Of a stretch of 36,948 nucleotides of DNA, positions 88 through 21,043 are shown one piece after another. Every line of letters begins with the position of its first letter. Position 1 is the first letter of the stretch. Source of the stretch: a virus; IMG/VR virus record IMGVR_UViG_3300050017_000221, positions 1 to 36,948 of that record; one strand, 5' to 3'. The translations under genes were made by a program, and so were the position numbers. The notes beneath the pieces were generated by a model, which did no database searches, had not been told where the DNA came from, and saw nothing but the letters and a program-made list of their open reading frames with translations.

Positions 88-242
88 CCGCTCGCCGCGA
101 AACCGCGCGGGACCGTGCATGGGTGTAGTTTGATATGGCGCAGATTTGAGGGGGGGGTATGGCGAGCCGGGGGGATAGCGGCGCGGTCGCGGTCGTCGGC
201 GCGCGGGAGCCTCCAGTTAGCATCTAGCTAGAGGCTGTGCCG

Positions 243-1904
243 TCAGGCCGCGTCGAGGAAACTGGTCTGGATGGCAGCCTCGCGGAGAGCGACCTCGATC
301 CGCCGCAGGTCGGTCTGCATGACCGCGAGCAAATCGGCCAGGATGCCGGCGCGGTGTGGGTTCGTCTTGCGAACCGCGACGATCTGGTTCTCGTGGATGC
401 CCGAGCGGAGTAGGGCGCTGATCCGATCGACGTTGGATTCGAAGGCGCTTGCCTGCTGCCTTTCCAGCTCGGTCGGGCCGGGTGGGGCGTCAGGCATCAG
501 GTCAAATTGAGCCTCCGCCTGCACGAGCGCGAGCGACGTTGCCCGGAGGTCCTGGTACTTTTTGCACCCGCCCGTGCGGATCGCCTCGAAGAGAACACGT
601 TGCCCGCGAGGGCCTAGCCGGGTCAGTTCGAAAGCCTCGGAGGGCGTCAGGTTGCCGCTCGCCAGAAGGCCCTGGTAGTCCGGCTCCAGCTTGAGCAGCA
701 CGGTGCGCTCGGTTATCCGGTGCGCCGCCTTGCCGATCCGGGCGCCGAGTTCCTCCGGCGTCCAGCCGCTTTCATCCATCAGGCCTTGGTAGGAGCGCGC
801 CTGTTCAAGCGGGGTGACATCCTGCCGCTGATCGTTCTCGACAATCTGGCGGACGCGGGTGTCGGTCAGGTTGACGGCTTCCTCGGTGACGTAGGCCCGG
901 ATCGTCGCGGCCCGGTTGATCTGGTGCGCGCGCCAGCGGCGTTCGCCGAACGTGATCCGGTAGCGGTCGGGTCCGACCGGCCGCACCTCGATCGGTTGCA
1001 ACAGGCCGTCGTGCCGGATAGTCCTGGCCAGCTCCCGCAGCGCAATCGGCTCGAAGACCTTCCGCGGCTGCTCTGGATCCGGCTCCACCTGATCCATCGG
1101 GATGTCGCGGATGTCGCGCTCGGGCGCCGGTGGAAGGGGTTCCGCGGTGCCGGCCTTGGTCGCGAAGATGATCCGCGCGGCGACGCCGGTACCGCTCGCG
1201 CGGAAGGTGTCGGCCGGCAGCTTGTTGGCGTCCGCCTTGATTTCCTTGAGCCAAGCCCGGAAGGCAACCGCCTTGCTGTCCTCGCGGAAGAAAGGCCCCT
1301 CCGAGCAGATCGCGATCAGCCGGCGCCCTGGCTTCACCATTTCCCAGGCCAGCCGGATATGGGCCATGTCCTGGCCGTTGGCGAAGGGCGGGTTCATCAC
1401 GACCGCGTCGTAAGGGGCGCTCTCGTACGCCTCGAAAGCCTGCTGGTGCACCTTGAGGTCGCCGCCGAGGCGGCGCAGTTCCCCGGCGTTGGTCGGGTCG
1501 ATTTCCACCGCGTCGACCATGCAGCCCTTGGCCTGTAGCTCGGTGACGATGCGGCCGAGGCCCGCGCTCGGCTCGAGTACCCGCTCGCCCGGCGCGAGGC
1601 CGGCGAGATCGACCATCCAGTGCGCCAGCTCGCGGGGGGTCTCGAAAAACCCCAGCTCCTTCTTGGCGTCGGTGACCGTGCCGCTTTCGACCGCGGAGCC
1701 GATCAGCTCGCGAGGGTCGAACGGAAATTCGTGCGTCCGGTGCTTCGTGCTCCATTTGCCGCGCGCGGCTTTGAGCACCTTGGCGACCCGCAGATAGGTT
1801 ACGCGGTCGAGCTCGTCGGGAAGCGTGAGAGTGTTCCCGGCGAAGACGCTGCGTGCCAGGATTGGCAGCACGTCATCCGGGATTTTCATTTTGGCGGCGG
1901 ACAT
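243..1904 (-). CDS. Adenine-type DNA methyltransferase fused to a ParB-like domain
   Basis: This 553-residue protein joins two enzymatic modules. Residues about 80-250 look like an N6-adenine methyltransferase: a SAM-binding motif I (VLEPSAGLGRI, 109-119), an acidic strand-2 motif (VEIDP, 133-137) and the catalytic NPPF (171-174). Residues about 265-430 look like a ParB/Srx domain: a DPEQPRKVF start (276-284), the GERRWRA box (320-326) and an ENDQRQDVTPLEQA segment (356-369), followed by a KorB-like helical region. A GGAG lies 6 bases before the ATG. It is the last gene of the leftward arm. The likely role is DNA modification that protects phage DNA, with ParB supplying DNA or nucleotide binding; this is inferred, as ParB domains in phages also occur in other modification systems. 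No target-recognition domain is visible. Confidence 0.8.
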   Translation of the reverse strand: MSAAKMKIPDDVLPILARSVFAGNTLTLPDELDRVTYLRVAKVLKAARGKWSTKHRTHEFPFDPRELIGSAVESGTVTDAKKELGFFETPRELAHWMVDLAGLAPGERVLEPSAGLGRIVTELQAKGCMVDAVEIDPTNAGELRRLGGDLKVHQQAFEAYESAPYDAVVMNPPFANGQDMAHIRLAWEMVKPGRRLIAICSEGPFFREDSKAVAFRAWLKEIKADANKLPADTFRASGTGVAARIIFATKAGTAEPLPPAPERDIRDIPMDQVEPDPEQPRKVFEPIALRELARTIRHDGLLQPIEVRPVGPDRYRITFGERRWRAHQINRAATIRAYVTEEAVNLTDTRVRQIVENDQRQDVTPLEQARSYQGLMDESGWTPEELGARIGKAAHRITERTVLLKLEPDYQGLLASGNLTPSEAFELTRLGPRGQRVLFEAIRTGGCKKYQDLRATSLALVQAEAQFDLMPDAPPGPTELERQQASAFESNVDRISALLRSGIHENQIVAVRKTNPHRAGILADLLAVMQTDLRRIEVALREAAIQTSFLDAA

Positions 1905-4400: not shown

Positions 4401-5726
4401 ATGTTTTTCGGAGCCGTGCCGCGGGCGGCGCTCCAACAGGTTACCCGCGTCGTCCCCTTCGCGGAGTGGGGGGACGTGTTCGTGGGCTGCTCGGGCTCAT
4501 TTCGGTTTGACCGATCTGTTCATGACGTCCACCCGACCGTCCGCGTCCATTCCAACGATGTCTCGCTGCTATCCTGCTCGATCGGCGCGCTGGCGGCCGG
4601 CACCCCGTTTCCGCTGAAATTTACCGGGCGCCTCGCCTTCATTGAGGAAGCGGTGGCGGGCCAGCCCTTCGTGGCCCGGGTCGCCGCGGTCCAGATCGCG
4701 CAGGAGATGGCGAAGTATCGCGGCCGTAACGGCTTCGCCGTGGCGCATTTCGCGCACTACCAGGAGCGGTTCCCGGACTTCCTCGCGGCGGCGATCGCCC
4801 ACACCGAGAAGGTGGTGGGCGCCCTGACCATCGCCAGCTTCCATGCCGGCGACTTCCGCGACCAGGCGGTGCGCGCCCTGGAGGCCGGCGGCGGGATCGC
4901 GGCGTTCCCGCCAACCTACAAGGGCGACTATGAGAGGCTCTACCGGTTCGTCCAGCAGAACGTCGAATGGACCGAGCCGGCCTACCGGCTGTGGGACCCG
5001 GCCGGGATCGAGGACTGGATTGACGAACTGAGGCAGATGCGCGTGCGCTACTGCGTTCTGGTGGAGCACGAGCTGGCCCGCCACAAGCCCTCGACGGCAT
5101 ATTTCGGCGGCATCAAGCCGGTTTTCACCTATAGCGACCAAGCCGCGTCCTCGGTCCGGCGGCTGCCCCGCAAGGCGCAGGCATTCGGTTATACGAAGGT
5201 CGATGCGGCGGCGCTGACGCCGCGAACCTGTGTCCAGATCGTGCGCGCGAGCGGCGCGCAGATGAATTTCCTCAAGGACGTCTATCTCAAAAAGGAAATC
5301 CAGCACACGACGGACATGGCGAACTTCCTAGTGATGCTGGACGGCAACCTGGCCGGCGGCTTCATCTTCGTCCGCAACAAATTCGGTCGCGGCGGCATCT
5401 ACATGCTCTGCGACTTCTCGTTGTCGCCGCTGAGTCGGGTGTCGAAGCTGATTATCATGCTGGCGACCTCGATGACGGTGATGGCAGAGGTCGAGGTCGC
5501 GCTCGTTGCCCGGATCGATTCAGTCTACACGACGGCCTATACGACCAAGCCGGTTTCGATGAAATACCGCGGCATTTTCGAGCTTATCAAGCGCGATCCT
5601 GGAAGACTCTTTTATGGCAGCAAAGTCCGAGACCAAACCCCCGCCGGTATCTACGCCGATTGGTTCCAACGGTTCGTTGCAAACGCGCGTCATAAGAGCC
5701 CCCCTCGCCTCGCTCAAGCTGCTTGA
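4401..5726 (+). CDS. Mom-like antirestriction / adenine-modification protein
   Basis: A 441-residue protein that I recognise as the type usually annotated as a putative antirestriction adenine methyltransferase. The N-terminal part has GDVFVGCSGSF (24-34) and HSNDVSLLS (50-58); the C-terminal part, from about residue 295, resembles the Mom/GNAT fold (MANFLVMLDG, then YMLCDFSLSP and KPVSMKYRGIFELI near 382-395). Mu Mom converts adenine to a carbamoylmethyl form to block restriction; the exact chemistry here is not shown by sequence. An in-frame TGA two codons upstream fixes the ATG at 4401 as the first start, although no ribosome site is evident. It is the first gene of the rightward operon and overlaps the next gene by 113 bases. 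Confidence 0.65.
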   Translation: MFFGAVPRAALQQVTRVVPFAEWGDVFVGCSGSFRFDRSVHDVHPTVRVHSNDVSLLSCSIGALAAGTPFPLKFTGRLAFIEEAVAGQPFVARVAAVQIAQEMAKYRGRNGFAVAHFAHYQERFPDFLAAAIAHTEKVVGALTIASFHAGDFRDQAVRALEAGGGIAAFPPTYKGDYERLYRFVQQNVEWTEPAYRLWDPAGIEDWIDELRQMRVRYCVLVEHELARHKPSTAYFGGIKPVFTYSDQAASSVRRLPRKAQAFGYTKVDAAALTPRTCVQIVRASGAQMNFLKDVYLKKEIQHTTDMANFLVMLDGNLAGGFIFVRNKFGRGGIYMLCDFSLSPLSRVSKLIIMLATSMTVMAEVEVALVARIDSVYTTAYTTKPVSMKYRGIFELIKRDPGRLFYGSKVRDQTPAGIYADWFQRFVANARHKSPPRLAQAA

Positions 5727-6390
5727 GAAAAATGCCCGGTATATGAAGGGCGAGCAGTTCGCCCTGCTGGTCAAGAACATCACGCGTGACGGTTGCCTGA
5801 CCAGCTTCCCACTGGTCGCCACGGTGGACGGCGCGCTGACGGTGGTCTCCGGGAACAACCGGGTGGCGGCCGGGATCAAGGCCGGGATCATCGAGCACGA
5901 TCTGATCGAGATCACGTCGCCGCTGACCCGAGAGCAGTTCGTCGCCCTGCAGCTCAGTCACAACGCCCTGGTCGGCGAGGATGATCCGAACATCCTCAAG
6001 GCGCTCTATGACGAATTGCCCTTCGAGTGGAAATTGTACTCGGGCCTGAGCGACGACGCATTCAAGATCGAGGACCTCGACCTGACCGCGTTGCAGGTCC
6101 ATGCGCCATTTTACCAGGAGCTGCACATTTCGTTCCTGCCAGGCGACCGGGAGGTTTTCCTCGCCTGGCTCGAAAGCATCGGCAAGTCGAAAGCGGCCGC
6201 AGAGCGCATGGTCGGCATCTACGCCGACTTCGGCCAGTTCTTTGACATGCTGCTCGCCGTGAAAAGCGCCAGCGGCGTTCACAACACCGCGGTCGCACTG
6301 CGGCTGATGGCGGAGAAGGCCGGCCTGGCGTTGCAGGCCGAGGAAGCCGCGCGCGCCGCGGCGGGTGAGGGCAGCGATGCGGGGAGCTAA
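5614..6390 (+). CDS. ParB-like domain protein
   Basis: A 258-residue protein with a ParB/Srx-type N-terminal domain: RAPLASLKLLEKNARYM (28-44), a MKGEQFALLVKNI helix and the SGNNRVAAG box (79-87), which corresponds to the GERRxxA motif. The rest is helical and ends in an alanine-rich tail. The start is fixed by GGAAGA 8 bases before the ATG, inside the preceding gene, so the two genes overlap by 113 bases in different frames. ParB-like proteins paired with modification enzymes just before terminase genes are common in phages; the likely role is to assist or target modification. It does not look like a partition protein since no ParA or centromere is visible. Confidence 0.65.
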   Translation: MAAKSETKPPPVSTPIGSNGSLQTRVIRAPLASLKLLEKNARYMKGEQFALLVKNITRDGCLTSFPLVATVDGALTVVSGNNRVAAGIKAGIIEHDLIEITSPLTREQFVALQLSHNALVGEDDPNILKALYDELPFEWKLYSGLSDDAFKIEDLDLTALQVHAPFYQELHISFLPGDREVFLAWLESIGKSKAAAERMVGIYADFGQFFDMLLAVKSASGVHNTAVALRLMAEKAGLALQAEEAARAAAGEGSDAGS

Positions 6391-6841
6391 GCCGACCGCG
6401 ACCATCCTCAAGGTCATCGCCGGCAACCCGGGAAGGCGCCCGCTCAACGAGCACGAGGCGAAACCGACGATCGTCGTCCCTGATCCGCCGGCGCTGCTGG
6501 AGGGGGAGGCGCTGGCCGAGTGGCATCGGGTCACGCCGCTGCTGGCGGAGGTGGGCCTGATCGCCAAGCTCGATCGAGCCATCATCACCGGCTACTGCCA
6601 AGCCTGGGCGCGGTGGATCGAGTGCGAAACGGCGCTCAGAACGACGGGCCTGATCGTGAAGGCCGCCAACGGCTTTCCGATGTACTCGCCTTATCTCACG
6701 GCGTCGAACAAGGCGCTCGACCAGGTGCGCCAGATGTCCGAGCAGATCGGCCTGTCTGGTTCTGCCCGGTCGAGGATCAAGGCGGGTGCGGCGCCGGGGG
6801 AGTTCGACCCGGCCGAAGACTTCTTGCGTGGCAGGGCGTAA
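6377..6841 (+). CDS. terS: Terminase small subunit, P27 type
   Basis: A 154-residue protein with the P27-family layout: a GAKPTATILKVIAGNPGRRP start, the EGEALAEWHRVTPLL segment, a helical middle (YCQAWARWIECETAL) and a C-terminal ASNKALDQVRQMSEQIGL segment. It recognises packaging DNA and hands it to the large subunit. I chose the ATG at 6377 because GAGGG lies 5 bases upstream; a GTG at 6365 is also in frame. It overlaps the previous gene by 14 bases and the large subunit by 14 bases, consistent with a coupled packaging operon. Confidence 0.85.
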   Translation: MRGAKPTATILKVIAGNPGRRPLNEHEAKPTIVVPDPPALLEGEALAEWHRVTPLLAEVGLIAKLDRAIITGYCQAWARWIECETALRTTGLIVKAANGFPMYSPYLTASNKALDQVRQMSEQIGLSGSARSRIKAGAAPGEFDPAEDFLRGRA

Positions 6842-8522
6842 GCGACCGGCGAAACCGCAGGACCCCGTCGAGGCGTACGCGAGGGCGGTTGTCGGCAACG
6901 AGCTGGTCACCGGCCGGCTGGTTCAACTCGCCTGCGAGCGCCACCTGCGCGACCTGGTTGATGGGCCGGCGCGGGGCCTGCGCTGGGATCCGTCGACCGC
7001 GCAGCGCGCGATCGACTTCTTTCCCGCCGTGCTGCGGCACAGCAAAGGCAAGTGGGCCAAGCAGCCAATCGTGCTGCTCGATTGGGAAGAGTTCTGCGTC
7101 GGGTCGGTGTTCGGCTGGAAGCTGGGCAACATCAGGCGATTCCGGACGGCGTTCGTCAGCACCGGGCGCAAGAACGGCAAATCGACGCTCGAAGCCGGCA
7201 TCGGCCTCAAAGGTCTGATTGACGAAAACGAGCCCGGCGCGGAGATCTATTCGGCGGCGACGACGCGCGACCAGGCGCGGATCGTCTACACCGAAGCGGA
7301 GCGCATGCGGGCAGGATCGCCCGCGTTGCGCCGGCGGATCCAGAAGACCACCAACAATCTCGGGGTGGTTTCGACGGCTTCGTGGTTCCGGCCACTGTCG
7401 GCCGACACCTCGAAGATGGACGGCCTTAACGTGTTCATCGCCCTGGTCGACGAGCTGCACGAACACCCCAACGGCGAGGTGATCGAGAAGCTCGACACCG
7501 GCATGGGCGCGCGCGAGCAGCCGCTGATGTGGGAGACGACGACGGCCGGCGTGAACCGCCTGTCGATCTGTTACCAGCACTGGGATTTTTCGACCAAGGT
7601 TCTCGAAGGCGTCATCCCGGCCATCATCGCCGATCGGTGGTTCGCCTATATCGCCACGGCCGACGTCGGCGACGATTGGCAGGATGAGCTGGCCTGGCGG
7701 AAGGCCAACCCCTCGCTCGGGGCCGTCCTCAAGATCGAGGACCTCCGCGCAGAGGTTGCGCTCGCCCAGCAGATGCCGGCCCGACAGAACGCTATCCGGC
7801 GCCTGCGGCTGAATGAGTGGACCCAGCAGTTAGTGCGCTGGATCCCGCTGGACGTGTGGACGCGCGGCGCCGACGCGATCGATCCCGAGGCGCTGCGCGG
7901 GCGCAGATGCTTCGCCGCGCTCGACCTGGCGCGGATCAACGACCTGTCGTCCCTGGCGCTGCTCTTCCCCCCGGCCGAGCCCGGCGAACGCTGGAAAGTG
8001 CTCTGGCGCCATTGGTGTCCGGGGGATGACATCGAGATGCGGTCGAAGCGCGATCGCGCCCCCTATGAGGTGTGGCGCGACCAGGGGCACCTGATCGCGA
8101 CCGAGGGCAACACCACCGATTTCAAGTTTGTCGAGAAGGCGATCCTCGACCTCGCCGCGGTCTACGACATCGTGGAGCTGGCGTTCGACCGCACGTTCGC
8201 CGGCGAGATCATCCGCAACCTGGCGGACGAAGGCATGACGCTGGTCGAGTTTGGCCAGGGCTTCCTCAGCATGGGGCCGGCCGCGGCCGAGTTCATGCGC
8301 AAGCTGCTGGCGGGCGAGTTGCAGCACGGCGGCGATCCGGTGGCCGACTGGTGCGCCTCGAACGTCTCGGTGCGCACCGATCCGGCGGGCAACGTCAAGC
8401 CGGACAAGGAACGATCCATCGAGCGCATCGACCCGATCGTGGCCGTGATTATGGCGGTCGGGCGGTCGCAGGCGGAACAAAACGGCCTCTATGGCGACGG
8501 CCGCGGGCTGCTGGTTGTCTGA
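6828..8522 (+). CDS. terL: Terminase large subunit
   Basis: A 564-residue DNA-packaging motor. The ATPase has a Walker A (STGRKNGKST, 111-120) and Walker B ending in DE (FIALVDE, 203-209), followed by a coupling TTTAG motif (237-241). The RNase-H-like nuclease has its acidic residues at D366 (AALDLA), D454 (AFDRT) and D535 (ERIDPIVA). All key residues are present, so it should be functional. The frame is open further upstream, but homology begins near the GTG at 6828, which overlaps the small-subunit stop by 14 bases. In HK97-type modules the next gene should be the portal; here the next genes are on the opposite strand. Confidence 0.93.
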   Translation: MAGRKRPAKPQDPVEAYARAVVGNELVTGRLVQLACERHLRDLVDGPARGLRWDPSTAQRAIDFFPAVLRHSKGKWAKQPIVLLDWEEFCVGSVFGWKLGNIRRFRTAFVSTGRKNGKSTLEAGIGLKGLIDENEPGAEIYSAATTRDQARIVYTEAERMRAGSPALRRRIQKTTNNLGVVSTASWFRPLSADTSKMDGLNVFIALVDELHEHPNGEVIEKLDTGMGAREQPLMWETTTAGVNRLSICYQHWDFSTKVLEGVIPAIIADRWFAYIATADVGDDWQDELAWRKANPSLGAVLKIEDLRAEVALAQQMPARQNAIRRLRLNEWTQQLVRWIPLDVWTRGADAIDPEALRGRRCFAALDLARINDLSSLALLFPPAEPGERWKVLWRHWCPGDDIEMRSKRDRAPYEVWRDQGHLIATEGNTTDFKFVEKAILDLAAVYDIVELAFDRTFAGEIIRNLADEGMTLVEFGQGFLSMGPAAAEFMRKLLAGELQHGGDPVADWCASNVSVRTDPAGNVKPDKERSIERIDPIVAVIMAVGRSQAEQNGLYGDGRGLLVV

Positions 8523-8524
8523 GG

Positions 8525-8737
8525 TCAGGCCGCGACCGACCGGAGCCGCGCCGGCGGCGGGTGTTGGCGGTGAAATTCGGCGAGCCCGGCCAGCCACTGA
8601 TCCACGTCGGCGGGGGCTTCCCCGCCAACACGCATCCAGCGGCGCACGGTGCCCTCGTCCCAGCCTAGCCGATCGGCTAGGCCACGTTGGGTCCAGCCGA
8701 TCGCCTGAAGTGACTCGCGGCGTTCGGTGGGGCTCAT
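8525..8737 (-). CDS. Small helix-turn-helix regulator
   Basis: A 70-residue protein dominated by a helix-turn-helix (WTQRGLADRLGWDEGTVRRW, 15-34), close to XRE-type units but without a dimerisation or sensor domain. It is the last gene of a three-gene leftward cassette; its ATG overlaps the stop of the gene before it (ATGA, 8734-8737). The cassette promoter carries two palindromes, so this protein is the best candidate for the autoregulator binding them. It ends 2 bp after the terminase stop, tail to tail. Confidence 0.7.
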   Translation of the reverse strand: MSPTERRESLQAIGWTQRGLADRLGWDEGTVRRWMRVGGEAPADVDQWLAGLAEFHRQHPPPARLRSVAA

Positions 8738-8967
8738 CCACCGATCAGCTTGATAAATCCGGCGCCGGCGGCGAACAGTGCCGCGCCGGCACCGAGCAAC
8801 GTGGCCGCGACGGTCCAGGGCAAAAACGCCCGGTCGCGGCCCAATTTCAGCGCCTCGGCATCGAGCTTGCGCTGCTCCGATACAAACTTGCGCGTTTCTT
8901 CCTGCGCCCGGTCGATCCGAGCGATTTGCTCGCGGAGGTCGAGCTGGGGAATCGGGATGTCGCTCAT
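8734..8967 (-). CDS. One-helix membrane protein with coiled N-terminus
   Basis: A 77-residue protein: a charged helical N-terminus (about 8-45, Q/E/R/K-rich, likely coiled coil) and a hydrophobic segment from about 50 to 74 (FLPWTVAATLLGAGAALFAA). The topology resembles small phage membrane proteins of the XhlA kind or superinfection-exclusion proteins, but there is no decisive motif. It is translationally coupled to the HTH gene by an ATGA overlap and starts 3 bp after the gene before it. Confidence 0.55.
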   Translation of the reverse strand: MSDIPIPQLDLREQIARIDRAQEETRKFVSEQRKLDAEALKLGRDRAFLPWTVAATLLGAGAALFAAGAGFIKLIGG

Positions 8968-8970
8968 CGA

Positions 8971-9171
8971 TCAGGCCTCCCGCCCCAGGTAGTCAATGGC
9001 GTCGCCCTCGGTAGCGAAAGCGCGCTGTGCGATGGCGTCTGTCCAGGGGCTGGCGAGATAGTCGGTGCGGCCACCCGGTGTCGGGCAAAAAACCATTCCG
9101 CAGTGGTGCGTACCACGATAGATCGATGCGGTAGCGTCGATTTCGTGGCGGATGGTGGTGATCTCGTTCAT
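8971..9171 (-). CDS. Small hypothetical protein, first gene of the inverted cassette
   Basis: A 66-residue protein from the ATG at 9169-9171, which has GAGGAG 8 bases upstream. An open frame extends to 9300 but would run through the promoter and both palindromes, so the short form is preferred. The sequence has an HHCGMVFCPTPGG stretch and ends in AFATEGDAIDYLGREA, which looks like a small alpha/beta fold. No family is recognised. Confidence 0.55.
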   Translation of the reverse strand: MNEITTIRHEIDATASIYRGTHHCGMVFCPTPGGRTDYLASPWTDAIAQRAFATEGDAIDYLGREA

Positions 9172-9214
9172 CGGGCATCTCCTCGATCTGCCGGGGTCAA
9201 TTCCCTCGGCCATG

Positions 9215-9229
9215 TCCGCATTATGCGGA
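9215..9229. promoter_or_regulatory. Operator-like perfect palindrome 1
   Basis: TCCGCAT-T-ATGCGGA is a perfect 7-1-7 palindrome. It covers the -10 element of the leftward promoter, so a protein bound here would block transcription. Its arms share the TCCGCA/TGCGGA core with a second palindrome centred 42 bp away, which is four helical turns. Confidence 0.65.
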
Positions 9230-9248
9230 ATTCTGCCCGGACTGTCAA
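9220..9248 (-). promoter_or_regulatory. Promoter of the inverted cassette
   Basis: On the minus strand a perfect TTGACA (-35, 9243-9248) is followed after 17 bases by CATAAT (-10, 9220-9225), the best promoter match seen in the window. It would drive the three leftward genes ending at 8525. Confidence 0.7.
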
Positions 9249-9256
9249 CAGTTATT

Positions 9257-9271
9257 TCCGCAATTTGCGGA
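9257..9271. promoter_or_regulatory. Operator-like perfect palindrome 2
   Basis: TCCGCAA-T-TTGCGGA is a perfect 7-1-7 palindrome lying just upstream of the leftward -35 and 28 bp before the ATG of the prohead protease. It could help repress the cassette by cooperative binding or affect the rightward head operon. Confidence 0.65.
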
Positions 9272-9298
9272 CTAATATAGACCGGAGCCCGCTCTCGC

Positions 9299-10477
9299 AT
9301 GACGAATCTGATCAGCGTCGACCAGTTCCGGAAGGAGCTGCGGGAGAAGCGCGTCCCGTCGGGCGGTGTCTATCGGGTCGGCACCGAGCCTCCGGAGCTG
9401 ACCTCCCAGGAGCGGACGCTGCGGTTTTGCTTCTCCGACGACGCCGTTGACCTGATGGGCGACACGATCGCCGCCGCCGGCTGGGACCTCGCGAATTTCC
9501 TGCGGAATCCGGTCGCGCTGTGGGCACACGACAGCTCGGCGCCGCCGATCGGCAGCGCAAGCAACGTCGGCGTCGAGGGCAACCGGCTGCTGGGCGATAT
9601 CGCGTTCGCCCCGCTGGAAACCTACGCTTTCGCCGACACGATCTACCGGCTGTTGCTCGGCAAGTTCCTCCGCGCGGTGAGTGTCGGCTTTCTGCCGACC
9701 AAGCACCTGTTCGTGCAGGACGACCCCGCCCGCCCGTGGGGAATCGATTTCCTGGAGCAGAGCCTGCTGGAGATCAGCGTCTGCCCGGTACCGGCAAATC
9801 CGAACGCTCTGGCCGAGGCCCGGCGCAAAGGCATCGACACCCGCCCAGTGATGGAGTGGGCCGAGCGCACGCTCGATGGCGGCGGCAAGGTGATCCTGCC
9901 GCGCAAGGAATTGGAACGCTTACGCATTGCAGCAAAGGAACCGCCGATGACAGCCACCCGCACGCCTCGCTCGGGGTCGCCTCCGGGCGCCCGCAGCGGC
10001 GGCGCGAGCGAAGTTGATCCGACCACCGGCGGCGCACTGGTCGCCTCCTGCGGCCGCAAGTCCGAAGACGAGTGCGGCATGACCGATCCCTCGGAGTGCG
10101 CGATCCACGCCGGCGTCGACCCCAACGCGGTTGACGACGACAAACGATTCGCCGCCGCGCTGCGCCGGCTGATCGGGCACGGCAAGGCCGGTACCGCCGA
10201 ATATCCGGGCAACGACGATCTGCCGCTGGCGCACGAGGACGCGATCCGCGTTGCGCACAAATGCCTGCGCACGTCGAAGGCTTTCATGGCCGAGGCGGCA
10301 AACCAGCACACCAAGGCGCTGAGTCTGTTGGATGGCGTGGTGGATGCGCTGGACACCGCTCCCGATACCGACCCCGACGCGGCACCGCCTACCGACCCCG
10401 ACGCGCCGCCGCCGGCCGACAAGGCGGCGCAGCTCCGACGCGCCGCTGCGCTGCGCGCCAAACACCCCACGGCCTGA
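9299..10477 (+). CDS. HK97-type prohead protease with extended C-terminus
   Basis: A 392-residue protein. Residues about 35-195 match the HK97 prohead protease family: the GDTIAAAGWDLANFLRNPV segment, LWAHD (His in the catalytic set) and LRAVSVGFLPTK carrying the catalytic serine. It cleaves capsid scaffold segments during head maturation. The family core is about 160-200 residues, so the remaining 190 are an extension: a low-complexity linker, an EVDPTTGGALV stretch at 238-248, a short cysteine-containing segment (CGRKSEDECG), a helical part, and a D/P-rich tail. The extension could serve as scaffold. A GGAG lies 11 bases before the ATG. Confidence 0.85.
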   Translation: MTNLISVDQFRKELREKRVPSGGVYRVGTEPPELTSQERTLRFCFSDDAVDLMGDTIAAAGWDLANFLRNPVALWAHDSSAPPIGSASNVGVEGNRLLGDIAFAPLETYAFADTIYRLLLGKFLRAVSVGFLPTKHLFVQDDPARPWGIDFLEQSLLEISVCPVPANPNALAEARRKGIDTRPVMEWAERTLDGGGKVILPRKELERLRIAAKEPPMTATRTPRSGSPPGARSGGASEVDPTTGGALVASCGRKSEDECGMTDPSECAIHAGVDPNAVDDDKRFAAALRRLIGHGKAGTAEYPGNDDLPLAHEDAIRVAHKCLRTSKAFMAEAANQHTKALSLLDGVVDALDTAPDTDPDAAPPTDPDAPPPADKAAQLRRAAALRAKHPTA

Positions 10478-10538: not shown

Positions 10539-11909
10539 ATGAGCACACTGCTGTCGCTCCGCCGCGCCCTGGGCGCAGCGGTTGATGCGCTGCCGGCCCT
10601 CGCCGGCACGCCCGATTTCGCGGCCAAGGAGCTGGAGGTCGGGCAGTTGGAGCAACATATCGGCGAGCTCGAGCGCGCCGAGAAGTTCGCTGCCAAGCTG
10701 GCCCGCCCGGTCGGCGGCGTCCCGGGCACCGACAACGTGCTGGAGATCAATCCCTCCCAGCGCACCCTGTCGCAGATCCGCGGGATGGACCCGCGCGCCG
10801 GGAGGCTGCGCGGCTTCGATGATTATCTGAGCCTGGCGCGGAAGGGCCTGGATTTCACCCCGAACGCCGGCGCGCAGTTCCGCGGCTTCGGCGAGCAGCT
10901 CCAGGGCGTTTTCAAGCACTACATGAGCAAGGGGTCCGACACGGACCGGCGCCTGGTGCGGGCGCCGACCGGGGCCGGCGAGGTCGATCCGACCGGCGGC
11001 GGCTTCCTGGTGCAGGTCGATTTCGCTGCCGCAATATTTATGTTGGCCCACGATATGGGGGAGATCCTCAGCCGGGTGAACAAGCTGCCGATCAGCGCCA
11101 ACGCGAACGGCATCAAAATTCCGGGCGTGGACGAGTCGAGCCGGGCGACCGGGTCCCGTTGGGGCGGCGTGGCGTCGAATTGGGTCGGCGAAGGCACGGC
11201 GGTCACCCCGTCGAAGCCGAAGTTCCGCACCGTCGAGTTCGACCTGAAAAAGCTCATGTCGGTGATGTACACCACCGACGAGCTGTTGCAGGATTCAACC
11301 GCGCTGACCTCGATCGCCTCGCAGGCGTTCTCGGAAGAAGTCATGTTCATGACCGAGGACGCGATCTACGAGGGCACCGGCGCCGGCATGCCGCTGGGGT
11401 TCATGAAAAGCCCCTGTCTGATTACCATTCCGAAGGTGACCGGGCAGGCCGAGGCAACGATCGTCAAAGAGAACATCGACCAGATGTGGGCGCGCTGCTG
11501 GGCGCGGTCGATCAAGAACGCGGCTTGGTTCATCAACCAAGACTGCATGCCGCAGCTCATGGCGATGAACCAGGCGGTCGGCACCGGCGGCCAGCTCGTC
11601 TACCTCGGCCCCGGCGGTTTGTCGGCAACGCCGTACTCGACCCTGTATGGCCGCGAGGTGGTGTGGACGGAGTACAGCTCCACCCTGGGTACGCCGGGCG
11701 ATATCGTCCTCGCGGACCTGAGCCAGTACATGCTGGTGGACAAGAACGGCGTGCAGGCCGCGACCAGCATGCACGTCGCGTTCCTGACCGACGAGATGGT
11801 GTTCCGGATCACCTATCGAGTCGACGGCAAGCCGATGTGGTCCGTGCCGCTGACCCCGTTCAAGGGCACCAACACCAAGTCGCCGTTCATCGCGCTGGCG
11901 CAACGCTGA
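10539..11909 (+). CDS. HK97-type major capsid protein
   Basis: A 456-residue major capsid protein. The first 65 residues form a helical, coiled-coil-like delta segment (KELEVGQLEQHIGELERAEK) that is probably removed by the protease. The mature fold follows: EVDPTGGGFLVQVDFAAAI (148-166), the E-loop region with SRWGGVASNWVGEG, then KKLMSVMYTTDELLQD, the P-domain helix near QAFSEEVMFMTEDAIYEGTG and the GMPLGFMKSP segment typical of this family. The ATG at 10539 follows GGAAA by about 12 bases; the frame is open further upstream but that part overlaps the protease and is arginine-rich noise. Highly confident. Confidence 0.92.
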   Translation: MSTLLSLRRALGAAVDALPALAGTPDFAAKELEVGQLEQHIGELERAEKFAAKLARPVGGVPGTDNVLEINPSQRTLSQIRGMDPRAGRLRGFDDYLSLARKGLDFTPNAGAQFRGFGEQLQGVFKHYMSKGSDTDRRLVRAPTGAGEVDPTGGGFLVQVDFAAAIFMLAHDMGEILSRVNKLPISANANGIKIPGVDESSRATGSRWGGVASNWVGEGTAVTPSKPKFRTVEFDLKKLMSVMYTTDELLQDSTALTSIASQAFSEEVMFMTEDAIYEGTGAGMPLGFMKSPCLITIPKVTGQAEATIVKENIDQMWARCWARSIKNAAWFINQDCMPQLMAMNQAVGTGGQLVYLGPGGLSATPYSTLYGREVVWTEYSSTLGTPGDIVLADLSQYMLVDKNGVQAATSMHVAFLTDEMVFRITYRVDGKPMWSVPLTPFKGTNTKSPFIALAQR

Positions 11910-14105: not shown

Positions 14106-14747
14106 ATGCGCACCACGCTGGCGGTGACAACCGAGCCGACCGCGGAGCCGGTGTCGATCGAGCTGTTCAAGCAGCACTGCCGGATCGACAGCAACGCGGA
14201 CGACGCCCTGTTGCCGGGCTACCTGACGGCGGCGCGGGTGATGGCGGAGGGCTACCTTAGCCGCGCGCTGCTGCCGCAGACCTTGCTGTGGACGCTGCGG
14301 CCGGAACGCATGCTCGACCGCGACCAGGGCCGGTTGCGCGGCGTGCTGGAGCTGCCGCGCGCGCCGGTCCAGTCGATCGCTGCGGTGACCATCCTGGACT
14401 GGGTGGGGAACGCCACGACGATCGCGGCGGCGACGCTGCCGATCGTGCCGCCGGCGCCGATCATCGGCTACGTGGCGGACCTGCAGCTTGATCCCGCGAC
14501 GCTGCTGATCGGGCCGGAGACGGTGCTGAGCGGCGGCTCTGCGCTGCGCAACACCAGGATCCAGCACGTCCAGGTGTCGATGGTCGCGGGCTATGCCAAC
14601 GCGGCCGCGGTCCCGTGGCCGACCGCTGTGGCGATCATGATGACGGCGGCGTTCCTCTACGAGCACCGGGGCGACGCCGGCGGCACGATGCCCGAGGTCG
14701 CGACGTGGCTGCTCGACCGCACCCGGCTGCAATTCCTCGGCGCGTAG
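14106..14747 (+). CDS. Head-tail connector protein, gp6/phiE125 gp8 type
   Basis: A 213-residue protein with the usual connector opening: EPVSIELFKQHCRID followed by DDALLPGYLTAARVMAEGYL, then a beta insert and a C-terminal helical segment (VAIMMTAAFLYEHRG) that matches gp6-like adaptors. It should form a ring below the portal and link the head to the tail. GAGAGGG precedes the ATG. The family usually lies a few genes after the capsid, as here. Confidence 0.75.
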   Translation: MRTTLAVTTEPTAEPVSIELFKQHCRIDSNADDALLPGYLTAARVMAEGYLSRALLPQTLLWTLRPERMLDRDQGRLRGVLELPRAPVQSIAAVTILDWVGNATTIAAATLPIVPPAPIIGYVADLQLDPATLLIGPETVLSGGSALRNTRIQHVQVSMVAGYANAAAVPWPTAVAIMMTAAFLYEHRGDAGGTMPEVATWLLDRTRLQFLGA

Positions 14748-14759
14748 GGAGGGCCCCCC

Positions 14760-15179
14760 GTGAAAATCCAGCATTACGACTCGATTCCGCACACACCGGC
14801 GCTGCGCCTGGCGGTCCGCTGCTGGCACGATCTGCTGGAGGCCGGCCACATCAGCGACGGCGGCTGCGCGGTCGGCTGGGACCATAAGGCGATCGTCGCC
14901 TTTGCCGATGACGGCACGCCGATCGGCGTCCTCACCTGGGTTGACCAGGGGTGGGCCAACGAGGTTGCCGCCCTGCTCGGCTATGTTGTGGCGGCGCACC
15001 GCATGAAGGGCGTCCAGACCGCGATGTGGAACGCGCTGGTCGAGAAGGCGATCGAGCTGAAACGACCGGTGATCAGCGCCAGCATCGCACTCGACAATTT
15101 TGCGTCGCGCGCGGCGATGGCCGCGAATGGCGGTGAGGAAACCAGCGTCAACGCGCGATTCCGCGTGCCAACCGCGTGA
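14760..15179 (+). CDS. GNAT-like acetyltransferase, accessory gene
   Basis: A 139-residue protein that looks like a small GNAT: an IVAFADDGTPIGVLTW beta pair, EVAALLGYVVAAHRMKGVQT (strand 4 and the start of the acetyl-CoA pocket), and a final SIALDNFASRAAMAANGG helix typical of GNAT C-termini. The canonical Q/RxxGxG/A loop is not perfect, so activity is uncertain. GTG start with GGGAGGG 6 bases upstream. Its place between connector and closure genes marks it as an inserted accessory gene. Confidence 0.55.
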   Translation: MKIQHYDSIPHTPALRLAVRCWHDLLEAGHISDGGCAVGWDHKAIVAFADDGTPIGVLTWVDQGWANEVAALLGYVVAAHRMKGVQTAMWNALVEKAIELKRPVISASIALDNFASRAAMAANGGEETSVNARFRVPTA

Positions 15180-15577
15180 TGTCGGACAGGCCTGTACCGA
15201 ACCTCGGGCCGGACCCGAACGCGGTCCGGATCGGCGCGCTGCGCTGGTTGGTCGTGCTGGCGACCCGCGAACAGGCGCCGGACCCGGACAGCCCGGGCTT
15301 CCTGGAAACCCTGGCGGAGATGCAGCCGGTGCGGGCGGACGTGCAGCCGATCGGGACGGTGACCTTCTACGCGGCCGAGCAGGTCGATACCCCGTTGACC
15401 CACCGCATCGTCATTCGCTGGCTCGATTGGGTCGATACGACATGCGTCGTGTTCCGCACCACAACCCGGCCCGACAAAAGCAAAATGGTCGAACGGTTCC
15501 GGGTGCGCCGGACGATGGCGATCGACGGCCGCCAGCGGTTCCTGCGCATGGATTGCGAGCTGGAAAAGAGGACATGA
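15179..15577 (+). CDS. Head closure / head-tail adaptor protein
   Basis: A 132-residue protein with the layout of phage head-closure proteins: a short N-terminus, IGALRWLVVLATREQAPD, a VQPIGTVTFY strand, HRIVIRWLDWVD and a final RRTMAIDGRQRFLRMDCEL strand pair. It would plug the connector and accept the tail. The ATG overlaps the previous stop (TGATG). The family is short and divergent, so the call rests on both pattern and position. Confidence 0.6.
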   Translation: MSDRPVPNLGPDPNAVRIGALRWLVVLATREQAPDPDSPGFLETLAEMQPVRADVQPIGTVTFYAAEQVDTPLTHRIVIRWLDWVDTTCVVFRTTTRPDKSKMVERFRVRRTMAIDGRQRFLRMDCELEKRT

Positions 15578-15584
15578 CGGCCTG

Positions 15585-16133
15585 ATGGCTTCCTCCGGTC
15601 ATGACAACGTCGGTCTGCGGATCACAGTCCCGCCAGGCTGGACGATCGTCGCGGGCAAGCAGCAGCTCAGCAAGGTCATGGGGGCCGCTGCTACCGAGGT
15701 TGCGGCCAAAGCGCGGGCGATGATCCGCGCCGGCGCCCGGAAACGGGCATCGCAGCCGGGCCAGCCGCCGCACAGCGTCACCGGCGCACTCGCGCGGTCA
15801 ATTCGGGGCCACGCGTGGCGGGATGGTGAGGGCGCAACGATCCGCGCCTCCGAGTACTACGCCTATTTTCTCTCGCTCGGCGCGAAGGGCGGCGGCGGCG
15901 ACACCTCGCGGTGGGAAAACTTTACTGTTAGTCTTGAGAAACGAAGCCGCAAATACGGGTACATTCTCGGGCAGCGGAGTCGCATGAAGCGTAGCGCGGT
16001 CTCGCGGACGCGCGTCCTGTTGCCACGCCCGTTCCTCGGGCCGGCGCTCGACCAGGTCATCGCGAGCGGCCTGGCCGACCGGGTGCGCGACGCGGTGATG
16101 AGCGGCCTGAAATTCCAACGAGGCAAGAAATGA
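15585..16133 (+). CDS. HK97 gp10-like tail-joining protein
   Basis: A 182-residue protein resembling the HK97 gp10 family: a helix of AAATEVAAKARAMIR type, SQPGQPPHSVTGALARSI, an EYYAYFLSLGAKG segment and RPFLGPALDQVIASGL near the end. These small proteins sit between the connector and tail terminator and help joining. It lies 7 bp after the closure gene, and its stop overlaps the next start (ATGA). Confidence 0.7.
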   Translation: MASSGHDNVGLRITVPPGWTIVAGKQQLSKVMGAAATEVAAKARAMIRAGARKRASQPGQPPHSVTGALARSIRGHAWRDGEGATIRASEYYAYFLSLGAKGGGGDTSRWENFTVSLEKRSRKYGYILGQRSRMKRSAVSRTRVLLPRPFLGPALDQVIASGLADRVRDAVMSGLKFQRGKK

Positions 16134-16390
16134 CGGCGCTGGCGGTCAGACCTGGTCTGGTTCCGATGCCGCGCGCAGCGGGCCGGCGCATCCATCCGGC
16201 GGTAGATCTCCTGGCGCGCGTCGAGCGCATGTTCGGGGCAGACCAGAAGGTGGCCCTGGATCGCGCGATGCTGATCGTCCAGCGGCTGATCGAATGCGGC
16301 CACGTCGCCGGCGTCATGGACGGCGCGGTGCCGCGGGCACTGCCGGCCGAGCCCGCCTCGGAAACCGCGCCCGCACACCCGCCTGGCTGA
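16130..16390 (+). CDS. Small hypothetical protein in the head-tail joining operon
   Basis: An 86-residue helical protein; its ATG overlaps the previous stop (ATGA, 16130-16133), with AGGCAAGAA upstream. The middle contains AVDLLARVERMFGADQK and a second helix MLIVQRLIECGHVAG; the tail is Pro/Ala-rich. No family is recognised. Tight coupling on both sides (TGATG at 16388-16392) shows it is a real gene of this operon. Confidence 0.6.
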   Translation: MTALAVRPGLVPMPRAAGRRIHPAVDLLARVERMFGADQKVALDRAMLIVQRLIECGHVAGVMDGAVPRALPAEPASETAPAHPPG

Positions 16391-17010
16391 TGGACATCTC
16401 GCTGGTGATCGCGCAGCTCCGGGCATACTGCCCGGCGCTGGGGCGCCGCATTGGCGGCGCGGCCGACTTCGACAAGGGCATCGAGACGGTCGTCGCGATC
16501 AAGGACCCCGTCACCGGAAAATTCGCCTACCCGGTCGCCGTGGTGATCCCGCTGGAGGATGAGGCGGCCAGCAACGACCTGATGGACGGCGTCGTCCAGG
16601 TGGTCACCGAGACCGTCGGCATCATTGTCGAGTTCGACGCGACGGCGGACCGGCGCGGGCAGGCCGCGGTCAGCCAGGTCGAGGCGATGAAGTACGCGCT
16701 TTTCGGCGCGGTGCTGAATTGGCTGATCGACCCGAACCGCGGCGCGCGCGGCCTGTATTACGCCGGCGGCGAGCTGCTGGATTTCGACCGCGCCCGGCTG
16801 TTCTGGATGTTCCGGTTCAGCTTCGACGCCACGATCACCGACGCGGACGGCTTCGTGGCGAGCGGCGATCCGCTGACCAGCGTCATCGAGACAATTCAGC
16901 CCGACGATCCGATCAAGCTCGCAGCGCCGATCGTCGCCGAGCAAGCGGTCGGCGGCACGGTCGCTGTCTGGGGCGGCTTCGCTTGGGATGATGGAGACGT
17001 TTGGGAATGA
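16390..17010 (+). CDS. Probable tail terminator protein, gp37 type
   Basis: A 206-residue protein starting with MDISLVIAQLRAYCPALGRR, followed by a beta-rich core (YPVAVVIPLEDEA, VVTETVGIIVEFDA) and a late WMFRFSFDATITD strand. This resembles Mu gp37-like and related tail terminator proteins that cap the tail tube; assignment is by pattern and position, immediately before the fibre block and the tail genes. Overlaps both neighbours (TGATG before, ATGA after). Confidence 0.6.
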   Translation: MDISLVIAQLRAYCPALGRRIGGAADFDKGIETVVAIKDPVTGKFAYPVAVVIPLEDEAASNDLMDGVVQVVTETVGIIVEFDATADRRGQAAVSQVEAMKYALFGAVLNWLIDPNRGARGLYYAGGELLDFDRARLFWMFRFSFDATITDADGFVASGDPLTSVIETIQPDDPIKLAAPIVAEQAVGGTVAVWGGFAWDDGDVWE

Positions 17011-18965
17011 CGATCGCGACCGGCGACGAAGCACTCGCGGCCGATGTCGCGACCGTGCAGGCGAACGCGGCCTCCGCTCTCATAGCGGCAGGAACGGCGC
17101 TGGCGAACTCGGCCACCGCGCTTTCGAATTCCGTCGCGGCGCAGGGCTCGGCTGCTGCTGCTGCCGAGCTTGCGGCTGTCGCGCTGTCGGTGCCGGCGCT
17201 GGACGTGGTTTCATCGGTGACATCGACCGACACCGTGCCGATCGGCCAAGGGGGCAGCACCGTCGCGGTGACCCTCCAGACGCTGCTCAACCCGGAGACG
17301 ATCGACCTGCTGGCGACGGCCAATCCAGCCTCCGATACCGACACCTTCCCGAGCGGCCAGGGCAGCAACGTGCTGCTGCGGCAGACCCTTGCCGGGGTTT
17401 GGTCGCTGATAGCGTCGCACCTTCCCGACTATCACCAGCCCGTGGTGGAGCTGACCGCAAACACCAACCTCGACGGCTCGACGCACAACAACCGGCTGTT
17501 GATCTGTAGCCAAGGCGTGACGATCACGCCGACCGGCACGATGGGGAGCGGCTTCGTCTGCGACGTGGTGAACGTGAGCGGGTCGAATGTGACCCTCGGG
17601 GCCGGGATCACCACCAGCAACGCGGGGAATGTCCTGCCGACCGGCGAATCCGCGCGGATCTGGTCGGCAACCTATAGCGGCGGCACGGTGAATTTCGCCG
17701 CGCTGTCGGCCGGCAGCGGCGGCGCCGCGCCAGCCACGCCGGGCCAGGTCACCGCGCTTGCCGCCTCCGGCGCCACATCCTCGACCGTGACGCTGTCCTG
17801 GACGGCGCCGGGCAGCGGCGGAACGCCCACCGCCTACACGGTGAACTACGCGGTGCACCCGGTCGGCAGTTGGAGTTCGGCGACGACCAGCGCCAGCGGA
17901 TCTCCGTTCACGGTGACCGGCCTTTCGGCCTTGACTTCGTATGACTTCGAGGTGATCGCGACCAACAGCGGCGGCAGCGGCACGGCGTCATCGACGGCCA
18001 CGGCATCGACGGGCGCGGCCAGCGCGGCGCCCGGTGCACCGACCAACCTGGCGGCGAGCACCGCCACCAGCAGCACGATGGCGCTGACCTGGAGCCTGCC
18101 GGGGAGCGGCGGCACGATTTCTGGCTTCTCCGCCTATTACAAGCTGCACTCGGGGAGCACCTGGTCGCTGGCGACGGCCGGCCTGGCCTCGACCGCGACC
18201 AGCTACACGGTGACCGGTCTCGCGTCCGGCACCTCCTACGATTTCTATGTGGCGGCGAACTCGGCCGGCAACGGCAGCACGGCATCGAGCACGGTGACCG
18301 CATCGACCACCTCGATCGCGGGTCCGAACGCGGTGACCGCGCTCGCCGCTGGCACTGTGACCAACTTCACCGTGCCGCTGTCGTGGACGGCGCCGGCGAT
18401 CGACGGTTCGCACGGCGCCGCCGCAACCTACACGATCCAGTATCGCATCGACGGCTCTTCGAATTGGGCGACCGCGGCGAGCGGGATTGCGACCGCCTAC
18501 TACACCGTGGCGGGCCTGATCGCCGGGCTGGAGTACCAGTTCAACGTGTTCGGGGTGAACGCGGCTGGCAGCGGTTCGGGCACGACCGCGACCGGCACGC
18601 CGGGGCCGGCGCTGGGCACCTTCACCTATTGGGGCACGGGTGGCTATCCGAGCGCCTCCGTGACGCACGGCACGACGGGGGCGATCGCCACCTTCACGAC
18701 GAGTTCCTCGGTTTCAACCGCGAGCTTCGGCTGGTCGGCGACTCAGGTCGATCCGCCGGCGACGTTGGAGGCGATGACGTTCCTCAACGGGAACCCCCTG
18801 GTCTACGGGTCCTACTCGGCGAACATGCCGGCGTCGGCCGGCACCTGGTACGGCTGGATGATCTTCTATGACGGCAGCGGCGACGCGGTGTTCGCCGTGA
18901 TCGCGACGACCGGTCAGACGATGCAGAACAGCACGCCGATCACGGCCGCCGTCACCGCGACATGA
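17007..18965 (+). CDS. Fibronectin type III fibre-like protein
   Basis: A 652-residue surface protein. The first 60 residues are an Ala-rich helical segment and residues about 70-240 are beta-rich. Three FN3 domains follow (roughly 245-335, 338-425 and 428-525), each with the typical TVTLSW, YTVNY-like and LTSYDFEV strands. The final 120 residues (TYWGTGGYP, then AGTWYGWMIFYDGSG, and an ITAAVTAT end) form a separate beta domain related to the C-termini of two later proteins. ATGA overlap and GGAGA support the start at 17007. FN3 domains on virions probably bind host surfaces weakly. No transmembrane or catalytic motif. Confidence 0.7.
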   Translation: MTIATGDEALAADVATVQANAASALIAAGTALANSATALSNSVAAQGSAAAAAELAAVALSVPALDVVSSVTSTDTVPIGQGGSTVAVTLQTLLNPETIDLLATANPASDTDTFPSGQGSNVLLRQTLAGVWSLIASHLPDYHQPVVELTANTNLDGSTHNNRLLICSQGVTITPTGTMGSGFVCDVVNVSGSNVTLGAGITTSNAGNVLPTGESARIWSATYSGGTVNFAALSAGSGGAAPATPGQVTALAASGATSSTVTLSWTAPGSGGTPTAYTVNYAVHPVGSWSSATTSASGSPFTVTGLSALTSYDFEVIATNSGGSGTASSTATASTGAASAAPGAPTNLAASTATSSTMALTWSLPGSGGTISGFSAYYKLHSGSTWSLATAGLASTATSYTVTGLASGTSYDFYVAANSAGNGSTASSTVTASTTSIAGPNAVTALAAGTVTNFTVPLSWTAPAIDGSHGAAATYTIQYRIDGSSNWATAASGIATAYYTVAGLIAGLEYQFNVFGVNAAGSGSGTTATGTPGPALGTFTYWGTGGYPSASVTHGTTGAIATFTTSSSVSTASFGWSATQVDPPATLEAMTFLNGNPLVYGSYSANMPASAGTWYGWMIFYDGSGDAVFAVIATTGQTMQNSTPITAAVTAT

Positions 18966-21043
18966 GCGTTTTCCAGGCCACGCCGGGCAGGTCGCAGGGC
19001 CTCGGCGCGGGCCAGGTATTGCTGGCTAGCCCGCTGTCCAGCGGCGTTGCGCCACCGCCTCCCCCGGTCCTCTCGGCGACGCCGGGCAGCATCACGGGGC
19101 TGTCTGGATGGTGGGATGGCGGTGCAGGCGCCAACATGATGAACGCGGCCGGCGTGCCCCTTGCGAGCCTGTCGGGCGGCTCCGTGGCTTCCCTGACCGA
19201 CCTGTCCGGGTCGAGCCGCGCGATGGTGCCGACCATCCCGGTGCAGGGTGCGCCGCGCATCAACGTCCTGCTGGGCGGGGCGGGCCTCCCCACCGCGATG
19301 GCCGCCGGCGCGGGCCTGGCGCCGTTGCTCGATCCGCGCGTCGGGTTCGCTGTGAACGGTCTTTCGATGGGATCGGGCAGCTCCTGGACCCGATATCTGG
19401 TCTGGACCCGCCCGAACCTGCGCGCTGCAACGATCTATGACGCCGATCCGGTGGCGCTGCTGACCATCGCCTCGACCGTGGTGCTGGCGCTGGACAGCGT
19501 CGTCGCCGGACGCCTCGTGCTGTTTCCCGGCGCGTCGCAGTCGGTGCTGTCGGTCACGATGGCGCGCCGGCACACGCACAACGTCATCCTGCGCTACACC
19601 GCCGGCACGGGAGTCGATGCGTGGCTGGATGGCGTCAAGGTGGCGAGCGCTGTCGCGAATCCTCTGCCGAGCAGCAATGCCGGAACCCTCACCTTCCTGT
19701 CCGACACGACTTCAACCGGGTCGGCGCAATGCTGGTTCAATGAGGCGGCGACCTGGGAACGGGCGTTGTCGTCGGCCGAGGTGACCACGCTGATTACCGC
19801 CTCGGCGCGGTGGCTGTGCGGCGCGCGGCGCGGCGTGAACGTCCTGGTGATCGGACAGAGCAACGCGGTCAATTCGCTGTCGGATGGCGCTTGGAACCTG
19901 TGCGCGCAGGGCCTCGCCTGGCACCTGGGCGCGGCCAGCTACGGCGTGATCGGCAACCAAGGCAGCTCGGCCTACACCGCGATCGGCGGCCACGGCATCT
20001 ACAACGTCCGCCAGCCGCCCGGCACCGGCGGGATCTACATCGGCGGCACCTTTCTGGCGGACCCTGGCGACGGCTCCAACCCGGGCGGCTGGAGCCTCGG
20101 CGCGGACGGCCTGGCGGTCGAGGCGTATCTCGCCGAATGGTCCGCCGCTGACCTGGCCGACATCGCGGCGATCGTGTGGCCGTGGTTCGAAACCGACAGC
20201 ACGCGCGAATACAGCGAGGGTGCGTTCTGGCAGGCCGGCGCACAGAACTTCCTCGCCCTGGTGCGGGCGATGCTCGGCCGCACGGCCGCGTCGCTGCCGC
20301 TGGCCTGGTGGGACCCGATCGCGTTCTGGACGAACCCCGGCATCCTGATGATCCGCAACGAGATGCCGGCGACGTCGTTGCTTTCCGCACAGAACGCGGT
20401 CCGCGCGATGCCTCTGACGGCGGACAGCAACCCGCGCGGCGCGACCTGGGACGCGAACACCGGCCTGATTACCGTGGCCGGCGACAACAATCACCTGGAC
20501 GCGACCGACAACCTGCGGCTGGGCCAGGTCGCGGCCGGGCCTATGGCGCGGGCCGTCCTGGCATCGAGCGGCGGCGACAGCATCACCGCGATACCGTCGG
20601 GCGTGCCGAGCGTCGGGCCGGCGATCACGCATGCCTACCGGCAGAGCAACACGGTGGTCATCGTCACCGTGGCGCACAACGCCGGCACCGACCTGATCGT
20701 GCCGCTGCAGGCGGTGAACGGGGCCGGCTGGGCGGTGATGGACGGCGGCAATGAGGCGAGCCCGGGGACCGTCCGAACCGCGACGGCGTGCGCGCGCGTG
20801 GACGCGACGCACCTGCAGGTGACGCTTGGATCCGCGCTGACCTCGGCCAGCTCGGGATGCCTGCTGTTCTACCCCTACGGCAACACCTGGATTTTTCGCG
20901 GCAACGCGGTGACCGACAATTCGGCGACGGTGGCGCGGCCGGCCGGTTGGGACATCGGCGCGGACCTGGGCAGCGGCTGGGATTGGAACCTGCCCGTGCA
21001 GGCGACCGACACGCCGATCCAGCTCAGCGATAGCTCGACGTGA
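18962..21043 (+). CDS. LamG-like and SGNH-esterase fibre protein
   Basis: A 693-residue two-domain protein. Residues about 42-285 form a LamG/concanavalin-like domain (LSGWWDGGAG start, WFNEAATWERALSSAEVTTL end). Residues about 290-535 look like an SGNH hydrolase: VIGQSN with nucleophile S300, glycine-rich loops around 327-345, and a late DNNHLD with D508 and H511. The last 155 residues are a beta-rich tail. The likely job is deacetylation of host surface polysaccharide during adsorption; the substrate is not evident. It is coupled to the FN3 gene by an ATGA overlap. Such enzymes usually lie with the distal tail genes, not before the sheath. Confidence 0.7.
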   Translation: MSVFQATPGRSQGLGAGQVLLASPLSSGVAPPPPPVLSATPGSITGLSGWWDGGAGANMMNAAGVPLASLSGGSVASLTDLSGSSRAMVPTIPVQGAPRINVLLGGAGLPTAMAAGAGLAPLLDPRVGFAVNGLSMGSGSSWTRYLVWTRPNLRAATIYDADPVALLTIASTVVLALDSVVAGRLVLFPGASQSVLSVTMARRHTHNVILRYTAGTGVDAWLDGVKVASAVANPLPSSNAGTLTFLSDTTSTGSAQCWFNEAATWERALSSAEVTTLITASARWLCGARRGVNVLVIGQSNAVNSLSDGAWNLCAQGLAWHLGAASYGVIGNQGSSAYTAIGGHGIYNVRQPPGTGGIYIGGTFLADPGDGSNPGGWSLGADGLAVEAYLAEWSAADLADIAAIVWPWFETDSTREYSEGAFWQAGAQNFLALVRAMLGRTAASLPLAWWDPIAFWTNPGILMIRNEMPATSLLSAQNAVRAMPLTADSNPRGATWDANTGLITVAGDNNHLDATDNLRLGQVAAGPMARAVLASSGGDSITAIPSGVPSVGPAITHAYRQSNTVVIVTVAHNAGTDLIVPLQAVNGAGWAVMDGGNEASPGTVRTATACARVDATHLQVTLGSALTSASSGCLLFYPYGNTWIFRGNAVTDNSATVARPAGWDIGADLGSGWDWNLPVQATDTPIQLSDSST

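Follow-up and report, generated by a model that had tools for sequence, protein, structure and literature searches.

Where does a phage with an HK97-type head keep its portal gene, if not beside the terminase? In phages of this type, the placement of the portal between the terminase and the protease is one of the more stable features of gene order, and annotators take it as a guide to complete versus defective genomes. The stretch of DNA analyzed here (referred to as the window) is the entire IMG/VR record IMGVR_UViG_3300050017_000221, 36,948 bp in length. From its sequence it had been proposed that the portal was lost and the element is defective, that the portal lies outside the window, or that its job is done by an unrecognized protein. 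The record is classed as 'linear' and may be a fragment, so a portal missing from the window may still be present in the phage.

The window lacks a portal gene

The packaging genes of the window and the genes at the junction between the large terminase (TerL) and the protease are listed below.

4401-5726, plus strand: DAM-like and GNAT phage protein, which opens the DAM-GNAT/ParB/TerS/TerL cassette (PF22555, 3.5e-44; PF22559, 5e-38)
5614-6390, plus strand: ParB-like nuclease-domain protein (phrog_7405, 2.7e-55; phrog_620)
6365-6841, plus strand: TerS (phrog_83, 2e-43; PF05119)
6786-8522, plus strand: TerL, HK97-like (phrog_9, 3.6e-158; PF20441, PF03354)
8525-8737, minus strand: cargo gene 1, small helix-turn-helix protein, 70 aa (phrog_4779, 8.9e-8)
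8734-8967, minus strand: cargo gene 2, small putative membrane protein, 77 aa (phrog_6330, 1.7e-6)
8971-9300, minus strand: cargo gene 3, 109 aa, no family (PHROG and Pfam without assignment)
9299-10477, plus strand: prohead protease, S78 family (phrog_80, phrog_3244; PF04586)

No PF04860 portal lies between TerL and the protease. In line with the original prediction, this interval holds just three leftward open reading frames (8525-9300). The prediction that no portal is found elsewhere in the window was also borne out: the PF04860 profile had zero matches across the entire 36,948-bp record, scanning the window's plausible genes against PHROG and Pfam returned no true portal, and the portal of related phages (see below), used as a tblastn query against the window, gave nothing significant (best E value, 0.58).

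The head and tail genes that bear on this question are as follows.

10539-11909, plus strand: major capsid protein, HK97-fold (PF05065, 5.5e-39; phrog_10)
14106-14747, plus strand: head-tail adaptor, gp6-like (phrog_442, 3.3e-23; PF05135)
15176-15577, plus strand: head completion/closure protein (PF05521, 4.7e-8)
15585-16133, plus strand: neck/tail-completion protein, HK97 gp10-like (phrog_5, phrog_879)
16294-17010, plus strand: tail terminator, mislabeled 'portal protein' in PHROG (phrog_209, 5.6e-23; PF23840 Phage_tail_terminator, 3.7e-18)
18962-21043, plus strand: 693-aa protein, the sole unassigned one of portal size or above (no Pfam family, marginal PHROG matches only)

The S78 protease thus stands beside an HK97-fold capsid protein (PF04586, PF05065), and the sheath, tube, hub and baseplate are of Mu type (phrog_165, PF10618, PF07157, PF21683, PF04865, PF10076). 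Fibronectin type III repeats were seen in the 17001-18965 product, between the tail terminator and the sheath, and fused to the C terminus of the DNA_circ_N baseplate hub (26068-28753). A GNAT acetyltransferase gene (14760-15179) is inserted between the head-tail adaptor and the head closure gene, as in some relatives only. At the right edge, a CheY-like response regulator (36556-36948) had no counterpart in the fetched relatives and is either host flank or an accessory gene.

Candidate portals within the window were considered individually. The 4401-5726 product is of portal size (441 aa) and is encoded upstream of TerS, and was rejected on account of its DAM-like and GNAT domains. The 16294-17010 product (238 aa) bears the phrog_209 label and was rejected on the basis of its PF23840 match and its tail-terminator position. 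The phrog_209 'portal protein' appears to be a tail-terminator family, and automatic annotation would falsely call a portal in the window.

The TerL-protease junction is portal-less across a clade

Relatives were gathered by scanning IMG/VR and GTDB with TerL and the protease, which yielded approximately 40 contigs whose TerL is 74 to 100% identical to that of the window. The protease follows TerL after a gap of 15 to 91 bp, with nothing between, in 28 of these contigs (15 to 41 bp in most relatives), and a further 6 hold other sequence of 135 to 968 bp at this point, giving 34 related contigs with a portal-less junction. Only six carry a portal between TerL and the protease, one of them divergent. 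A portal remnant in the gap of the window was rejected, as tblastn of the clade portal against 8521-9300 gave chance-level matches only (E values of at least 0.13). Contrary to the implied premise, the 777-bp gap is not a leftover portal site but an insertion; most relatives have a junction of 15 to 41 bp there. A portal-less junction is the ordinary state of the clade, and the three small genes of the window are one of several cargo insertions.

The junction has the look of a small cargo hotspot, with differing inserts of 0.6 to 1.0 kb in five relatives (L019, L025, L031, L038, and L125). L107, L109, and G023 have minus-strand homologues of cargo gene 2.

Relatives carry the portal to the left of a methyltransferase-ParB gene

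PF04860 and the portal of one relative, G011, served as queries against the relatives. The landmark for their comparison is a methyltransferase-ParB fusion gene near the left edge of the window, beyond whose left side relatives carry an HNH gene and the portal.

1-242, no strand: left contig edge, intergenic; its counterpart in relatives lies between the portal and methyltransferase-ParB (blastn, alignment)
108-125, plus strand: conserved 18-mer CGGGACCGTGCATGGGTG, once per genome, between the portal and methyltransferase-ParB
243-1904, minus strand: methyltransferase + ParB fusion (Pfam ParB_N and HTH_ParB; PHROG methyltransferase and ParB matches; synteny)

All five relatives that reach more than about 3.5 kb to the left of methyltransferase-ParB have a PF04860 portal there (G024, G011, L110, L105, and G013, the last with a partial copy at the contig end), so that the inspection of close relatives called for by the original prediction placed the portal elsewhere in the genome. 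The upstream portal is intact in four of the five, and an HNH gene precedes it in four of the five. The spacing between the portal end and methyltransferase-ParB ranges from 1.3 kb (L105) through 1.8 kb (G011) and 2.5 kb (G024) to 3.8 kb (G013) and 3.9 kb (L110). Two contigs that extend 2.3 kb (L005) and 1.7 kb (L012) to the left of methyltransferase-ParB end without a portal, which fits the spacing of 1.3 to 3.9 kb and is no test of it. The portal copy of G013 (L100 1-640) is truncated and frame-disrupted by small gaps relative to G011, reflecting either pseudogene decay or a contig-end error.

The portal-less junction and the upstream portal occur together in one contig only in G024 and G013. 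G024 is a prophage on a 69,556-bp contig of an Acetobacteraceae metagenome-assembled genome. Its left part encodes, in one contig, tRNA-Phe, an integrase, a VapE-like gene, HNH, the portal, an ATPase-domain gene, and the leftward methyltransferase-ParB, and its right part encodes DAM-GNAT, a ParB-like gene, TerS, TerL, the protease, the capsid, connectors, and the tail. The portal (25560-26894; 444 aa; PF04860, 9.1e-80) is intact and lies 9.8 kb upstream of TerL (36668-38416), and the protease begins 15 bp after TerL, at 38432. A search for att repeats of at least 14 bp shared by the integrase side and the right flank of G024 detected none; the right flank probably ends before attR.

One relative, L035, has a divergent portal (5228-6331) of about 32% identity despite a TerL that is 76% identical, which indicates that its portal has been replaced. 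L186 gave a portal match similar to that of L035.

The left edge of the window is collinear with the portal-bearing relatives

Positions 1 to 242 of the window align by blastn, at 73 to 80% identity, to the intergenic stretch between the portal and methyltransferase-ParB in G011, L105, L110, G013, and L107, and to its counterpart in L005 and L012, whose contigs stop before any portal. Because the window ends 242 bp past methyltransferase-ParB, its own portal would be expected approximately 1 to 4 kb beyond the left edge. The three contigs that are 100% identical to the window (L001 to L003) extend no further left, an exact-match scan of viral contigs with the left end of the window gave zero hits and so no extending contig, and scans with methyltransferase-ParB for more spanning contigs yielded no new close ones.

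The intergenic stretch holds a conserved element (64-177) with its core at 108-125, where the 18-mer is near-identical though the neighboring proteins are only 60 to 70% identical. Allowing up to 2 mismatches, CGGGACCGTGCATGGGTG was found in 3.1 Mb of fetched loci in the contigs of this group only, always in the same place, against an estimated 0.13 or so chance matches. It was absent from the portal-between relatives L033, L034, and G023, and is co-distributed with the relocated portal. An Rfam search gave no match, and the conserved intergenic stretch folded less stably than its shuffles. That the 18-mer is a cos- or pac-like site is a guess.

The relocated portals form one clade under purifying selection

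In the portal tree, the relocated portals and four of unknown context form one clade (support values, 88/93 for the whole and 99/97 for its core), and this clade is nested within the portals that occupy the usual site. The contigs with a portal-less junction likewise cluster in the TerL tree, except L030, which is consistent with a recombinant. Pairwise dN/dS values of the relocated portals are 0.04 to 0.21; they are therefore under purifying selection.

Several gene orders coexist among the relatives. L112, L115, and L079 have HNH-TerS-TerL-portal-protease; L033 and L034 retain the portal after TerL and have HNH on the left side of methyltransferase-ParB; G023 has TerL-HNH-portal-protease. 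In G024, the HNH-portal pair is far upstream and TerL adjoins the protease, and G011 agrees up to TerL. These arrangements look like preserved steps of a rearrangement, and the gene order of the clade appears to arise from a single relocation. Presumably, either HNH and the portal moved as a pair or the portal joined an HNH gene already upstream, and both routes fit the data.

Interpretation and alternative explanations

Collectively, these findings make it very probable that the window belongs to an HK97-type packaging module in which HNH and the portal stand apart from TerS-TerL and the protease, and in which they are here cut off by the contig end. The window would be a piece of a phage that is probably temperate, has a contractile tail and an HK97-type head, and is related to Acetobacteraceae prophages. 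In this clade, the portal and, next to it, an HNH gene for a packaging-type nuclease are situated on the left side of methyltransferase-ParB, some 10 kb upstream of TerL. After the portal come 1.3 to 3.9 kb of sequence, then methyltransferase-ParB, and then the DAM-GNAT/ParB/TerS/TerL/protease run. The three leftward genes of the window are a small piece of cargo, placed in a junction that takes various inserts. Since a leftward gene block separates the portal from the head genes, it would be made from a separate transcription unit. The portals of the relatives are full-length PF04860 proteins and nothing suggests an unusual portal; we infer that the relocated portal works as usual, with TerL docking onto a dodecamer of the PF04860 protein that would sit at the head vertex.

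The first explanation offered originally was that the portal was lost and the element is defective; in a defective prophage of this kind, the three leftward genes would have replaced the portal. The lack of a portal in 36.9 kb and the occupation of its canonical site by leftward genes speak for it, but the same junction is common to 34 related contigs and so is not a lesion of this element, the upstream portals of the relatives are intact and under selection, the window's head and tail genes, as far as examined, are conserved and have open frames, and the identical contigs L001 to L003, three in number, derive from other metagenomes. The missing portal at this site is thus not private to the window, nor do the examined head genes show decay, and this explanation is very unlikely. 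Loss of the portal sequence during contig building is conceivable for a metagenome contig; four separate records (the window and L001 to L003) are, however, identical across the junction, which excludes a private assembly error, and dozens of relatives have TerL-protease gaps of 15 to 91 bp, leaving such an artefact next to no probability.

That an unrecognized protein of the window forms the portal would have to be argued mainly from the 693-aa protein, since some proteins lack a family and its AlphaFold model is too poor to serve as a test (pLDDT, 31.5; uninformative). All other window proteins above 300 aa are assigned, however, the 693-aa protein and its neighbors have homologues in G024, which carries a normal PF04860 portal, and the distant relatives L057 and L059 pass from the tail terminator to the sheath without it. 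An unrecognized portal is accordingly not needed and is highly improbable. The remaining option, a portal outside the window, is strongly supported by the relatives and by the collinearity of the left edge, the window's own portal not having been sighted directly; the phage of the window probably carries it to the left of methyltransferase-ParB. Rather doubtful is an elaboration in which HNH-portal left the terminase and protease possibly together with a new cos-like packaging site, marked by the 18-mer between the portal and methyltransferase-ParB, so that portal and terminase would lie at opposite ends of the packaged linear genome.

An ordinary portal in an unusual place is strongly supported by these comparisons and would constitute a new gene-order variant of the HK97-type module. 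That a whole clade breaks the portal-between order urges caution against labeling such contigs portal-less. The clade also offers a natural case for asking whether the portal must share an operon and order with the protease and capsid for correct procapsid assembly.

Comparison with known systems

No report of an HK97-type phage with a relocated portal came up in a literature search, which was limited in coverage and is thus no proof of absence. The window and its relatives resemble the HK97-type module (HNH-TerS-TerL-portal-protease-capsid) in TerS, TerL, the S78 protease, the capsid, the gp6- and gp10-like connectors and their usual order, and the portal of the relatives is likewise PF04860. 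They differ in that HNH-portal is split off about 10 kb upstream of TerL and that TerL abuts the protease. Because the usual gene order is not kept, the window is a variant of this module and not a standard member.

In the packaging region of Skunavirus, HrdP is an HNH protein encoded between TerL and the portal and is assigned to DNA packaging (PMC12724721). The HNH gene directly precedes the portal there as in this clade, and the relative G023 also has TerL-HNH-portal, whereas the HNH-portal pair of the window's clade is upstream, away from TerL. The tail resembles that of Mu, with homologues of the sheath, tube, tape measure, DNA_circ_N hub, gpP/gp44, gp46, gp47 (baseplate J), and gp48. Unlike in Mu, the head is HK97-type with an S78 protease and a phrog_9 terminase, and G024, a prophage beside tRNA-Phe with a tyrosine recombinase, is not a transposing phage. 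Portal and terminase genes are also non-adjacent in T7-like and phi29-like phages, which have other head and portal families and in which the separation is ancestral; in the clade of the window, by contrast, the separation of portal and terminase arose within an HK97-type lineage.
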